Of a DNA stretch of 64,000 nt, positions 48,891-54,396 are shown piece after piece. Origin of the DNA: Planctopirus ephydatiae (lineage in GTDB: Bacteria > Planctomycetota > Planctomycetia > Planctomycetales > Planctomycetaceae); contig NZ_CP036299.1 of NCBI RefSeq assembly GCF_007752345.1, forward strand, positions 4,994,001 through 5,058,000. The letters run 5' to 3'. Both the position numbers and the translations under genes were made by a program. Each line of letters starts with the position of its first letter. Position 1 is the first letter of the stretch. A model generated the notes under the pieces. It had not been told where the DNA came from and did not search any database. It was given only the letters and a program-made list of their open reading frames with translations.

Positions 48891-49925
48891 TTAACTCCCT
48901 TCATGAAGCCAACTTTTGAGAGCAGAACCCACAAACAAATTCACTCCCTGACTTCCCGACAGCAGTCCGGTCGAGGCATTGTTCGTGCCCCCAGTTGCCA
49001 GCGAAACTGGGGAAGACGCTTGCGGATCAATCGCGATCTGCCACGAGATGTGGCTGACACGTTGACCCGCTGAGTTTGAACAGAACCCTCCATACCAGGG
49101 AAGTTCTTTCCAGGCCTGGCTGCCTCGAACTCCCGACGCCAACTCATGAGTTGAGGGAGATTGCAGAAGTTGAAAGCGGATGGCTCCGCGAAATGAAGGC
49201 GCACTTGGATTGCCAGTCGACTCTAAAGGAGTGATGGCCAGTCGAGTGATGATCGGCAGCCTCCGCGCAGAGGGTGACAGGACAGCTTCACGAAGAGTGG
49301 CTGCGAAGTTGGCAGCATCGAATGAGACTGTTTGAGAATCCTCAGGAAATGTGACTTCCACCAACCGGCGGGCAGTGGTTTGTAAGGGAGAGCCTACCGA
49401 CTGGGATTCAAGGACGGGAACAGGAGCCGCATCCCAGGTGTAGACCACCAGTTCACTCATAAGCGGTGTTCGATTGGGAAAGTCACCCCCCACCAGATTG
49501 CCATTCGAACCACCACTCCACAGGACCAGCAGATCGCCTGAAGAGTTTGCGGATAGTCCCGCTGTACCCCATTGCTCGATGACAAAAATTCCGGGTTGCC
49601 TGACTCCCGATGAATCGCGATAGGTGGCAGCTTGCCGAATCATCCAGTTTAAACGCTGATGGAAGGCATCGGATTCATGTCGTGCCCTTTCCATCGATTC
49701 GCTGAAAGTCCAAGCCGTATGGACTGCCAGCGAAAGTGATCCAATCACAGCACTGAGCAGTGAAAAAATCATCATCGAAACCAGCAGTTCGGGAAGAGTA
49801 AATCCTCCCGGACCACGGGCTCGATGAGTCGAGAACGAACGGGTTCCCGGAAGCACATGTTTCTGCATTTCCGGAAGCCAGCGACAAGTTTCCAGTGCAG
49901 TGAGATCAGGGGGCGGGAGGAACAT
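48891..49925 (-). CDS. Prepilin-like protein (GspJ/PilW-like)
   Basis: The 344-aa protein has a long leader of about 40 residues ending in PGG, then FTLPELLVSMMIFSLLSAVIGSLSLAV: a textbook class III prepilin site (G/FTLxE). The pattern ARHESDAFHQRLNWMIRQAATYRD and the large beta-rich C-terminal part fit GspJ/PilW. ATG 49925 is used, since GAGGA lies 9 nt upstream and it overlaps the preceding gene by 20 bases; an internal ATG at 49868 would give a shorter, more usual leader. Confidence 0.85.
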   Translation of the reverse strand: MFLPPPDLTALETCRWLPEMQKHVLPGTRSFSTHRARGPGGFTLPELLVSMMIFSLLSAVIGSLSLAVHTAWTFSESMERARHESDAFHQRLNWMIRQAATYRDSSGVRQPGIFVIEQWGTAGLSANSSGDLLVLWSGGSNGNLVGGDFPNRTPLMSELVVYTWDAAPVPVLESQSVGSPLQTTARRLVEVTFPEDSQTVSFDAANFAATLREAVLSPSARRLPIITRLAITPLESTGNPSAPSFRGAIRFQLLQSPSTHELASGVRGSQAWKELPWYGGFCSNSAGQRVSHISWQIAIDPQASSPVSLATGGTNNASTGLLSGSQGVNLFVGSALKSWLHEGS

Positions 49926-50538
49926 AAGCCATGATCCTCACACTTTGAGTTATGATCGGGGCGTTCGCTAAACTTTGTGGCAAAGGCCCGCTTTGCGTCG
50001 TGCCAGTTTCTGAAATGGCGAGTGGTGCCGTCAGTTCTCGCACACGGACTGTCACCCGGCGGAAGCCTGTCTCGCTGGTCGCCACTGGCCAGGTCGAACC
50101 TGTCCCTTGCTGGATCCGCTCAACAACGACTTCCTGTACAAAGCGGTTCATCGCTGGAAGATCTGGCGGTGAAGTGCCGTTATCGATGAATGTTGCCGAT
50201 GGATTCAGTGCCAGGTGACCCAGGAGTCGTCCATGTCGATCTGCCGGCGGCGACTGAACATAACCGGCATAGTCGTCAAGATCGTTGAATTCCAGACGAC
50301 TGGGCACAGTTCCCATTGTTCGCACCGTGGGCCGGGAGTCAGCCAGAAGTGGGAACCGCGCTAATGAGATTTCATCCATCAGTTGTTGACAGATGCCTCG
50401 CGCGACAGTGGTCGAAATGGCACTGGAAGAGGCTTGCCCCAGTCCGTACACCACCTGCACAAGTGCTGCACAAGCCATCGTCGTTACAGTGACAGAGACG
50501 AGGGCTTCGATCAGTGAGAAGCCATTTCGCGGGGTCAT
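49906..50538 (-). CDS. Prepilin-like protein (GspI/PilV-like), first gene of the cluster
   Basis: The 210-aa protein starts MTPRNG/FSLIEALVSVTVTTMACAALVQVVYGLG, a short leader followed by a class III prepilin helix with Glu at +5. ARGICQQLMDEISLARFP is typical for GspI/PilV-type minor pilins. ATG 50538 gives the normal leader of six residues; an ATG at 50574 is in frame but has no ribosome site. A consensus-like promoter and a hairpin leader precede it. Confidence 0.85.
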   Translation of the reverse strand: MTPRNGFSLIEALVSVTVTTMACAALVQVVYGLGQASSSAISTTVARGICQQLMDEISLARFPLLADSRPTVRTMGTVPSRLEFNDLDDYAGYVQSPPADRHGRLLGHLALNPSATFIDNGTSPPDLPAMNRFVQEVVVERIQQGTGSTWPVATSETGFRRVTVRVRELTAPLAISETGTTQSGPLPQSLANAPIITQSVRIMAYVPPAP

Positions 50539-50655
50539 CTGACACTCGAGTGATGGGGGTTTGGCTGAATCCATGGTTAGCGACTGTGTGAAAGTGATGG
50601 ATCTGCAGTTTGATGGCAGGTCGTCTGTAATGTCGCCTGGACATCATGAAAACGG

Positions 50656-50956: not shown

Positions 50957-51274
50957 TTTTCTTAACCAGCAACGCGCTGTAGTTTTCTGCGAAACGTATA
51001 ACTGGGGGCGGATGACAACAGCCAACTCCAACCTACCAATCGAGTTGCCTGGCAAAAGGACGCGCATGGCACGATTTCGATGTGTTGTTGTTCGTTCAGC
51101 GAATACTTGAGGCTGTTCAGGAAACTGTGTTAAGCCTGCGGAGTTATGCCAGAGGGATTGTCTGCGTTAAGCGGTTCAGTTGTAGTGTTCGACGGGATTG
51201 CGTCGCGTGGATAGAATCAACAGGCGAGTGATTTTGCGAGTGTGGTCTGGCGACGCCCCGAACTGCGTGCTGTA

Positions 51275-53377
51275 ATGGAAGACCGCGTCGATCGATTGCC
51301 CGATCTGGATGAACTCTCTCAAGACAAGAGACGTATTTTGAGTAATGCTGCCCCCGGGCCATTTGAACGTGCTTTTGCGAACCGAGATCTGTTTCGAGGT
51401 GCGGCTCGATCCGGTTTATTCTGGTCGCTCGCATCGGCTGTACTCACACTCCTGCTGGTCGCTGTGGCGGGTTTAATCCTGGGCTTGTGCATTCATCACG
51501 GCAAAATGTTTCTGGAACTCGATGGCACGGCTGCCAAGCAACTGGAAAAGCTGGCTGGTGAGCGGCTGATTCCCCCAGAATTCAAAGCCATCTCAGAGTT
51601 GCCCCCTTTCGATATGACGCTCAATCCCTCGGCCTCTCCTCCACCACTGATTCCGATTATCCGTGATGACACCGGAATTCTGCCCACCGTCTGGAATCGT
51701 CGAAACTACTGGTATGGCCCGGCTCTGGCCTGGTGCTACCAGTCGATTATGACCCTTCAATCGACAGTCCCCGCGCTGGTGACATTGTTACTCAGTGGTG
51801 CTGTCCTGACTCTGCTGCGGATGGGTTGTATCGGACAAGTGAAACTCAGTGCCCGCAAAGCCGCTCTCGAAATGAGTGCCCAGATGCGGAGGAATATCTA
51901 CCGCGCCAACCTGCGATTGGGCGTGGAGGATATCGAAGGCCACACGACACAAAGGGCTCGTCGGATTTTCGTCCAGGAAATTGAAAGCCTGCAGAATCTT
52001 CTGTTCGAGTACATCGATCGAACCTTGCGATTGCCGGTGGAGATCGTGGTTATGCTGGCCGCACTGCTGCTGATCAACCCACTCTTGACGATTGAATGGT
52101 TACCACCTTTAGCATTGTGCTGGTATCTGCTTTCACAGGGTAATGCTCGCGCTCAATCCGCAAGGCGACTGGCGGCGGATCGTGGAAATCATGAGCTGCA
52201 GGTGATGGCCGATGGTCTCAATCGTTCTCAGCTCATTCGCAGTTATGGGCTGGAACAGACTGAGCAGGAAGCGTTTTTAAACCACCTGGATCGATACACT
52301 CAGAATATGAAACTGAAAGCCCGCGTTCAGGATGACGCACTGTGGCTGAGGATTTTCGTCTATATGGCGGTTGTCGCAGTGATGGTCTTCCTGCTGTTCA
52401 TTACGCTGGTACAACTGGCCATCGATTCCCCATTACTTTCCCTCGCAGATGTGCTGGTCTTCCTCTCGGCAGCAGCGGCACTCATGTATGCCTCGCGGGA
52501 GCTTGCCCGCGTCCCAGGGATTCGTCGACAGGCCGCAGAGATCTCGACACATATCTTTCAGTACCTGGATCAGATTCCTCAGGTCAGCCAGGCTGTGGGT
52601 GCCAGGTTCCTGAATCCACTGAACAAGCGTCTGCAGATCGATCAGGCGACCTATAAGGCTCCGAATTCCGATCAGGAACTTCTCGATAAGCTCGATTTGA
52701 TTATCGATGCCAATCACAAGTATGCCCTGGTGGGAATTGACGAGCTGGATGCCCGGGCTGTGGCGATGGCCATTCCTCGATTCATTGAATTGAAATCGGG
52801 GCGAGTGCTGATTGATGGTGAAGATGTCGCCTGGGCGACATTGGAATCTTTGCGTTCAGAAATCATCTTTGTGACTTCGAACGCGGCGGTCTTTCCGGGT
52901 ACGATCCTCGATAACATTGCCGCCGGTGGAGAATTCACACTCCAGCAATGCACGGACGCCGCCAAAGAAGCTCACGCTCATCAGTTCATCGTCGGGTTGA
53001 TGAACGGTTATGAAACAGTGCTTGATCCGCGCGATCATCAACTCAGTGAAGGACAGATCTTTCAACTGGCTCTGGCGAGAGCACTGGTTCGGCGCCCGGC
53101 ATTGTTGATTATCGAAGAACCTGAGGCGGCTCTCGATGACGACACGAAAGCCTTACTCGATGATACTTACGACCGGATCACCTCCGGACGAACAGTGATC
53201 TTTCTGCCACAGCGGCTGGCCACACTGAAGCGAGTCGATGAGATTATCGTGCTGGGGCAAGGCCGCGTCGCTGCTCAGGGCCCGCATAGCGTGCTGGTCA
53301 AAGAATCGCCGATTTACCGCCATTGGGAGTACCTGCGGTTCAACGAATTCCGTCATCTGAGTGACTCCGGACGATAA
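51275..53377 (+). CDS. ABC exporter-like protein with a degenerate nucleotide-binding domain
   Basis: The 700-aa protein has an ABC exporter layout: a membrane domain of about six helices (residues ~50-425, with a large loop after helix 1) and a C-terminal NBD (about 455-690). The NBD keeps the A-loop Tyr (KYALVG) and the D-loop (AALDD), but Walker A reads GIDELDARAV (487-496; no Lys, no Ser/Thr). The Q-loop Gln is replaced (VTSNAAVF), the signature is LSEGQ (590-594), Walker B is LLIIEEPEAALD (610-621; Asp to Glu) and the H-loop His is Gln646 (LPQRLAT). Overall NBD similarity is high, so it is a pseudo-ATPase rather than a random decay product. It probably needs a partner or has a non-transport role. 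ATG 51275 has a weak ribosome site; GTG 51242 is possible. Confidence 0.85.
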   Translation: MEDRVDRLPDLDELSQDKRRILSNAAPGPFERAFANRDLFRGAARSGLFWSLASAVLTLLLVAVAGLILGLCIHHGKMFLELDGTAAKQLEKLAGERLIPPEFKAISELPPFDMTLNPSASPPPLIPIIRDDTGILPTVWNRRNYWYGPALAWCYQSIMTLQSTVPALVTLLLSGAVLTLLRMGCIGQVKLSARKAALEMSAQMRRNIYRANLRLGVEDIEGHTTQRARRIFVQEIESLQNLLFEYIDRTLRLPVEIVVMLAALLLINPLLTIEWLPPLALCWYLLSQGNARAQSARRLAADRGNHELQVMADGLNRSQLIRSYGLEQTEQEAFLNHLDRYTQNMKLKARVQDDALWLRIFVYMAVVAVMVFLLFITLVQLAIDSPLLSLADVLVFLSAAAALMYASRELARVPGIRRQAAEISTHIFQYLDQIPQVSQAVGARFLNPLNKRLQIDQATYKAPNSDQELLDKLDLIIDANHKYALVGIDELDARAVAMAIPRFIELKSGRVLIDGEDVAWATLESLRSEIIFVTSNAAVFPGTILDNIAAGGEFTLQQCTDAAKEAHAHQFIVGLMNGYETVLDPRDHQLSEGQIFQLALARALVRRPALLIIEEPEAALDDDTKALLDDTYDRITSGRTVIFLPQRLATLKRVDEIIVLGQGRVAAQGPHSVLVKESPIYRHWEYLRFNEFRHLSDSGR

Positions 53378-53487: not shown

Positions 53488-54396
53488 ATGTCTGTGCGCC
53501 ATTCAACCGGGATTCCAGAACTTGATCAGCTGCTGGGTGGTGGCCTGATTCCTGGAACATTGACAGTCATTCTGGGTGCGACCGGGATTGGCAAAACCCA
53601 ACTGGGAATTCAGTTTGCCGATGCAGGAATTCATCAGGAAGGAGCACCCGGCTGTATTGCGGATCTCACCACGCGCGGCGATTCCCAGAATCATCTCGCG
53701 TATGCAGCCCGCATGCGTGACTGGCAACTCAAGACGACCGACAGCGCTGAAGAAAATCAATCGGGTGAAAACCTGCTGTATGGGGCAAAGGTCTTTCTGC
53801 ACCTGGAAGATCGCGCCCAGTATTTGAATCTGCTGGAAATGACGGGTCGCCGGGTGACTCGTGAATCGACCACAGCGGAAGAATGGCAGGATTGGAAAGC
53901 CGAGTGGAATCATCGTCTGGAAAGGGCCATTGCCTTTTTCTATCGCAATTTTGTGGGTGGCACCCGCCGCTGTGTGATTGACGGTATCGAGCCAGCGGCC
54001 AGGTCGGCAGATTCCCAGCAGTTCGAGATGTTCTCGTACATCTATCATCAGGTATTACGCAAGGATCATGACTGGCTGGCCCGCGACCTGTTCCGCATTC
54101 GGTATCGAGAGCTGGAACCATTGGTGATGCAGCATGCCTACGAGACCAGCCAGATCTCATGTGTCCTGCTGGCAACTTCGCACGAAGTGATGCTGGAAGA
54201 TCTGATTCGTCGTCCAATTGCGACTGGCGATGAACTCTCGAACGCGAATACGATTATCCTCATGGGGAAGATCCACGAAGGAACCCGCATGTCGCGAGCG
54301 CTCTATGTGGCCAAGCATCGCGGCAGTCCTTGTGAAGAATCGATTGTGCCCTACACAATTACTGAGTCGGGCCTGAAACTGCATCCTTCATGCTGA
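53488..54396 (+). CDS. KaiC/RAD55-like RecA-fold ATPase
   Basis: The 302-aa protein starts STGIPELDQLLGGGLIPGTLTVILGATGIGKTQLGIQFA: the KaiC/Rad55 signature with an intact P-loop GATGIGKT (about residues 31-38). A Walker B-like RCVIDGIEP occurs near 170, and SCVLLATSHEV further on resembles the sensor strand of RecA-fold ATPases. The protein is a single domain without kinase-duplicated halves. It follows the pseudo-ABC gene by 110 bases on the same strand; a functional link is possible but unproven. The role (regulation, DNA or protein remodelling) is unknown. Confidence 0.82.
   Translation: MSVRHSTGIPELDQLLGGGLIPGTLTVILGATGIGKTQLGIQFADAGIHQEGAPGCIADLTTRGDSQNHLAYAARMRDWQLKTTDSAEENQSGENLLYGAKVFLHLEDRAQYLNLLEMTGRRVTRESTTAEEWQDWKAEWNHRLERAIAFFYRNFVGGTRRCVIDGIEPAARSADSQQFEMFSYIYHQVLRKDHDWLARDLFRIRYRELEPLVMQHAYETSQISCVLLATSHEVMLEDLIRRPIATGDELSNANTIILMGKIHEGTRMSRALYVAKHRGSPCEESIVPYTITESGLKLHPSC

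Follow-up and report, generated by a model that had tools for sequence, protein, structure and literature searches.

Can an ABC exporter that no longer has an ATP site be kept by selection, and if so, for what job? This question is raised by a gene on the forward strand at positions 51275-53377 of the window, the stretch of 64,000 nucleotides of Planctopirus ephydatiae DNA analysed here. An earlier note on this DNA had described the product as an ABC exporter-like protein with a degenerate nucleotide-binding domain (NBD) and had taken it for a selected pseudo-ATPase. Starting from an ATG, the gene encodes 700 amino acids; an alternative GTG start at 51242, with the same stop at 53377, gives a product of 711 amino acids. 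The open reading frame (ORF) is a real and intact gene. We found no match to it at an E value of 1e-30 among 72,556 plasmid records.

The exporter-like character of the protein was borne out. Pfam recognizes ABC_membrane (PF00664) at residues 171-405 and ABC_tran (PF00005) at residues 496-616, both above cut-off. The transmembrane domain (TMD), of the type IV ABC exporter kind, covers about residues 25-435 (51347-52579, forward strand), with the model and its structural matches beginning near residue 25, and the NBD is placed by Pfam and structural matches at about residues 440-690 (52592-53344, forward strand). The structure prediction that the earlier note had proposed returned an ABC fold: an AlphaFold2 model from 53 sequences reached a pLDDT of 88.2 and a pTM of 0.81, and its whole-chain PDB matches were CmABCB1, TmrAB, MsbA, and P-glycoprotein (Z about 30-31, residues ~25-693). 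The modelled NBD lies 2.0 Å from the MsbA-type NBD 5eum_B over 247 residues. By both Pfam and predicted structure, then, an exporter-type TMD is followed by an ABC NBD of known fold, and the protein is predicted to have the complete fold of a type IV ABC exporter half-transporter, though its ATP site is dismantled. The ABC_tran match begins at profile position 27 of 137, past Walker A, so that the Walker A part of the profile is unmatched. Because this match is above the curated cut-off, an annotation as "ATP-binding protein" drawn from it would mislead. Among the 54 ABC_tran matches in the window genome (5.2 Mb, one contig), the gene ranks 46th. The best NCBIfam model is MsbA_lipidA, at 194.8 bits (cut-off, 602), and among the matches listed (25 of 139) none is at its cut-off.

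We compared the NBD motifs in a table of 139 rows, which excluded rows under 550 amino acids or 200 bits and counted identical last 300 residues once. The rows were split by Walker A pattern into 103 Walker-A-minus and 36 canonical rows, so the absence of the pattern in the 103 is partly definitional; four pairs among the 103 are more than 97% alike. In the window protein, the Walker A position reads GIDELDARA (residues 487-495; 52733-52759; like every motif given here, on the forward strand), without the Lys or the Ser/Thr. The Q-loop Gln is lost to Ser535 (52877-52879), and the H-loop His has become Gln646 (53210-53212). Walker B is LLIIEEP (residues 610-616; 53102-53122), with Glu614 for the Asp, Glu615 kept at the catalytic-Glu position, and Pro616. 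The signature is LSEGQ (residues 590-594; 53042-53056), nearer to the canonical one than the LDAGQ-like signatures of many relatives, and the D-loop retains Leu620-Asp621. The earlier note, which was silent on the catalytic-Glu position, had otherwise read these losses, the signature, and the D-loop correctly. It had also stated that the A-loop Tyr is kept, and here it was mistaken: the canonical Tyr column corresponds to Ala462 of the window protein (52658-52660), while Tyr460 aligns with a canonical Phe. That column holds Tyr in 34 of the 36 canonical rows and His in the other 2; none of the 103 Walker-A-minus rows has Tyr there, and 4 have another aromatic residue or His. Judged by these residues, the NBD of the window protein cannot form a normal ATP site.

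The same loss runs through the relatives. In none of the 103 rows are there three glycines; the second glycine is always missing, as is any Ser/Thr behind the Lys position. An acidic residue stands at 488-492 in every one of them, versus 2 of the 36 canonical rows. The Walker B Asp column holds Glu in 91 and Asp in 1 of the 103. Other losses are graded: the Lys is kept in 25, the Gln in 29, and the His in 23 of the 103 rows, mostly outside the window's family, and 16 rows keep Lys, Gln, Glu, and His together without the glycine loop or the Ser/Thr. Odd or weak nucleotide binding may occur in those 16. The description of the NBD as "fully degenerate" goes somewhat too far, given that Glu615 is retained and that relatives still carry individual residues.

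Orthologues with the same Walker A loss occur in 53 of the 59 genomes of the class. They are found in every genome of the window's family (37), of f2 (7), and of f3 (6), in 2 of the 3 genomes of f4, and in the single genome of f6; none was found in the four genomes of f5 or the one of f7. Two f2 genomes (G042 and G055) are counted by a profile match plus permease linkage, and the orthologues in G019 and G051, each cut by a contig end, are represented by a C-terminal fragment. From one f7 row that stands beside a named Pirellulales row, we infer that f5 and f7 are Pirellulales. Walker-A-minus loci include members of Planctomycetaceae, Isosphaeraceae (Singulisphaera, Paludisphaera), and Gemmataceae. 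Among the best 80 matches in named genomes, those from other phyla, one from Pirellulaceae, and one from Pirellulales were all canonical. A phylum-wide search of 294 genomes at an E value of 1e-40 gave a match in 81. Of these, 63 lie beyond the class, and the rows examined, which came from 12 of the 63, were all canonical. In a quick tree with five long end branches, made with the motif columns removed, a single branch (SH-aLRT 99) separates 38 Walker-A-minus rows from 36 canonical ones. The earlier note had held that orthologues with a canonical Walker A would mean local decay, and no canonical row lies inside the Walker-A-minus branch. This is most simply read as a single ancient loss of Walker A, and no reversal was seen. 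That the group is older than the split of Planctomycetaceae, Isosphaeraceae, and Gemmataceae is a more tentative proposition, part of a reading to which we return below and which we consider rather doubtful as a whole.

Relaxed selection, with a dN/dS near 1, was another outcome that would have spoken against a selected pseudo-ATPase. We calculated dN/dS by the Nei-Gojobori method for 11 chosen pairs, of which 2 were saturated in overall dS and 2 more had a dS above 1. In the 9 pairs with finite overall dS, the ratio was 0.028-0.076. For the NBD only it was 0.012-0.056 (10 of the 11 pairs), and it was below that of the TMD in 8 of 9. The dead NBD itself is under strong purifying selection. Column conservation across the NBD is 0.61 in the Walker-A-minus rows versus 0.61 in the canonical ones. 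Such constraint on a dead domain argues for the NBD having a job. Binding motifs have been lost across an old group in which the fold is kept under purifying selection, and we regard it as highly probable that the protein is a selected pseudo-ABC exporter without a canonical ATP site, as the earlier note had proposed.

What this job might be is suggested by a neighbour. Of the 51 class genomes with both a pseudo-ABC gene and an ABC-2 permease gene, 41 have the permease gene directly upstream and in the same orientation; a script counted 40, and G018, in which the two matches share 7 bases, makes up the number. The two are not adjacent in the other 10: the window's genus accounts for four of these, and the remaining six are G005, G026, G033, G043, G048, and G051. 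In G048 and G051, contig ends limit the view. In the window genome the permease gene is at C1:1012334-1013209, far from the pseudo-ABC gene. Within the flanking sequence examined, the length of which differs between loci, the permease accompanies 87 of the 103 Walker-A-minus rows versus none of the 36 canonical ones. The permease matches PF12679 above cut-off. Its model has a pLDDT of 84 and among PDB entries comes closest to NosY chains (E value of 5e-4), with a modest TM-score of about 0.5. A search of the 59 class genomes found the permease in 57, including all six without a pseudo-ABC gene, and no orthologue in G019 or G022; at an E value of 0.001 the count is 58, the G022 match (3e-4) being too weak to count. 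Since the six genomes without a pseudo-ABC gene have the permease, it does not need the pseudo-ABC protein everywhere.

With an exporter fold kept under selection, the ATP site lost, and a permease gene usually adjacent, it is probable that the fold of a pump has been turned to an ATP-free job. The explanation we prefer, and to which we give an even chance, is that of an old, selected pseudo-ABC exporter that serves the ABC-2 permease without using ATP, with the ATPase of the permease encoded elsewhere; that serving this permease is the job of the protein is, taken by itself, a suggestion we hold at slightly short of even. The identity of the protein is well supported, and its mechanism we infer as follows. 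The pseudo-ABC protein would dimerise in the membrane free of nucleotide, with neither binding nor hydrolysis of ATP. Its dead NBDs would hold the shape of the dimer or dock partners, and the permease usually encoded upstream would have in the whole its scaffold, gate, or receptor within the membrane. One part that could sense or dock is a long loop at residues 75-163 (51497-51763, forward strand), between the first two long helices, which by analogy with exporter topology is presumably extracytoplasmic. The columns of this loop hold a median of 74 residues (range, 21-197) in the Walker-A-minus rows versus 31 (1-133) in the canonical ones. The permease itself would be energised by an ATPase encoded in trans.

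The alternative that survives best dispenses with the permease, whose proximity would be incidental: the protein would be a stand-alone, ATP-independent channel, facilitator, or lipid scramblase of exporter fold. The full TMD is retained, and in the window's genus the two genes lie apart. According to PMC7756269, a D-loop mutant of TAP1 (ABCB2) turns into a facilitator, still gated by nucleotide; downhill movement of substrate through an exporter TMD is thus feasible. This reading leaves the linkage to the permease in several families unaccounted for, and an NBD under at least as much constraint as the TMD is needless for a bare channel. We consider it unlikely.

A dead half of a heterodimeric ABC exporter, similar to TM287/288 or TAP and with its active half elsewhere in the genome, is less probable again. 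ABC exporters with degeneracy on one side are frequent, as PMC7756269 describes, and the window genome has further half-exporter matches, for example, at C1:721848, 4461573, and 2059903. We searched 151 pseudo-ABC loci (flanks of 1.5-10 kb, some loci being the same genome twice) with a profile of canonical NBDs. Another canonical NBD ORF was present in only 5 of them (L055, L062, L064, L181, and L184); none resembled an exporter half, and none recurred. We therefore rejected an active ABC half as a linked gene next door. Of the earlier suggestion that the protein pairs with an active ABC subunit, the linked partner falls and the unlinked one is left standing. The nature of the lesion also counts against a dead half. 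Heterodimeric or full-length exporters with one degenerate site (TM287/288, TmrAB, TAP, CFTR, ABCG5/G8) likewise combine the exporter fold with a selected degenerate NBD. Their degenerate sites, as described in PMC7756269, mostly have the signature and the catalytic Glu altered, with the Walker A Lys changed to Arg in ABCG5/G8; the second site stays active, and the degenerate one still binds ATP. In the pseudo-ABC proteins, by contrast, the phosphate-binding loop is destroyed across the whole group and the Glu position is kept, and no paired active half is seen at their loci. Degenerate ABC sites are well known already, but as the partner of an active site.

It is more improbable still that the remodelled site serves as a sensor, binding a ligand other than ATP or binding ATP in a new way. 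Some residues fit the idea: Glu615 is kept in 103 of 103 Walker-A-minus rows, Arg647 in 102, and Pro616 in 100, and the loop is acidic in every row. Glu615 and Arg647 are each present in 35 of the 36 canonical exporters too, and with the two near-invariant in working exporters, their retention may be simply structural. In the segments beside the site, 498-506 and 560-582, conservation equals or exceeds that of canonical exporters (0.73 and 0.75 versus 0.71 and 0.67). Against a sensor, the Walker A segment (0.52 versus 0.79), the Q-loop (0.46 versus 0.64), and the signature (0.46 versus 0.72) are less conserved than in canonical rows, and no single new pocket motif stands out. Decay of the gene, whether local or as a pseudogene, has only the motif loss in its favour and next to no probability, being ruled out by a dN/dS far below 1 and by the spread of one old group, on a single branch, through 53 genomes.

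A pseudo-ABC exporter that serves the permease leaves the energy source to be found. We inspected the surroundings of 31 ABC matches in the window genome, mostly stand-alone NBDs. By eye, no multi-helix gene was seen beside the NBD genes at L219, L221, L224, L225, L239, and L242. One of these encodes an orphan ATPase (L239; C1:1253132-1254055, or L239:2950-3873), for which the best model is GldA_ABC_ATP at 235.6 bits against a cut-off of 402.6. The L224 NBD likewise scores with DrrA, at 235.5 bits. The orphan GldA-like ATPase is present at an identity of at least 59% in 56 of the 59 class genomes, with the next matches at 52% or below; across the other genera of the class, identity to the window genome's copy is 59-84%. 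Among 20 loci compared with 5 kb of flank on either side, 17, as counted by eye, have an ORF of 732-839 amino acids with 1-4 predicted helices ahead of it. Four of these ORFs, the window genome's included, gave one Pfam match, which was below cut-off. The orphan ATPase and the permease are a candidate pair by their shared presence, and no locus joins them. Phylum-wide searches on this point mix orthologues and paralogues; around permease homologues outside the class (20 loci), no ORF matched the orphan ATPase at an E value of 1e-6. That this ATPase energises the permease is doubtful, one candidate among several; we keep its chances low because several other NBD genes of the window genome also have no adjacent permease. 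The fullest version of our preferred explanation, in which a split NosFY-like transporter would be made up of the ABC-2 permease, a trans ATPase, and the pseudo-ABC protein as a scaffold subunit of exporter fold that is independent of nucleotide, is the reading mentioned above as rather doubtful. If true, two unrelated ABC transporter folds would be joined in one machine, and a whole group of ABC exporter-fold proteins would have been ATP-free from a time before Planctomycetaceae, Isosphaeraceae, and Gemmataceae diverged.

How does this protein compare with known systems? With exporters of the MsbA/ABCB type (type IV) it has in common the domain order and the TMD and NBD folds; unlike them, it does without the Walker A, A-loop, Q-loop, Walker B Asp, and H-loop residues, and its first extracytoplasmic loop is longer. 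An analogy for the proposed role is offered by SUR1/SUR2 (ABCC8/9), in which an exporter fold regulates another membrane protein. They are described as channel regulators in PMC7756269, and their NBDs interact with nucleotide according to the abstract of PMC4699857. The partner of SUR1/SUR2 is a K+ channel, whereas that proposed for the pseudo-ABC protein is an ABC-2 permease. The third likeness is to NosDFY, of the ABC-2 type: the neighbouring permease fits NosY best, the orphan ATPase fits GldA_ABC_ATP best, and here the permease and the candidate ATPase are encoded apart. We know of no NosF/NosY that works with an exporter-fold protein. In the literature covered, which takes in few subscription journals, we found no report of an exporter group without ATP sites or of this planctomycete gene. 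Here a conserved exporter has lost its phosphate-binding loop group-wide while the NBD is as conserved as a working one. This makes testable the role of an ABC exporter NBD that is blind to ATP.

Several other genes lie near the pseudo-ABC gene or the permease. A KaiC/RAD55-like ATPase gene at 53488-54396 of the window is co-directional with the pseudo-ABC gene and close by on one contig in G000, G001, and G003 (in G002 the gene itself is split over contigs). We rejected it as a partner: relatives occur in 42 of the 59 genomes, beside the pseudo-ABC gene only in the window's genus. Further upstream, an acylphosphatase gene is found in 16 of 51 loci (15 genomes), and an HD-domain gene lies downstream in 9 of 51 (8 genomes), each assigned by Pfam on one representative. 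A single genome has, downstream of the pseudo-ABC gene and in the opposite orientation, an NBD gene followed by what appears to be a permease gene of its own (L062:5826-7840). In f5 genomes, which have no pseudo-ABC gene, the permease is extended at its N terminus by about 200 amino acids (L123, L128, and L130); in L123, helices are predicted on both sides of a soluble stretch. This extension might replace the role of the pseudo-ABC protein. Outside the class, 9 of 20 permease homologues adjoin a metallophosphoesterase-like gene, recognized by eye from a GDIHxN-type start. Finally, at 48891-50574 on the reverse strand of the window, divergent from the pseudo-ABC gene, are genes whose products start with GFTLPELL and GFSLIEAL, which we take to be starts like those of prepilins or type II secretion pseudopilins.
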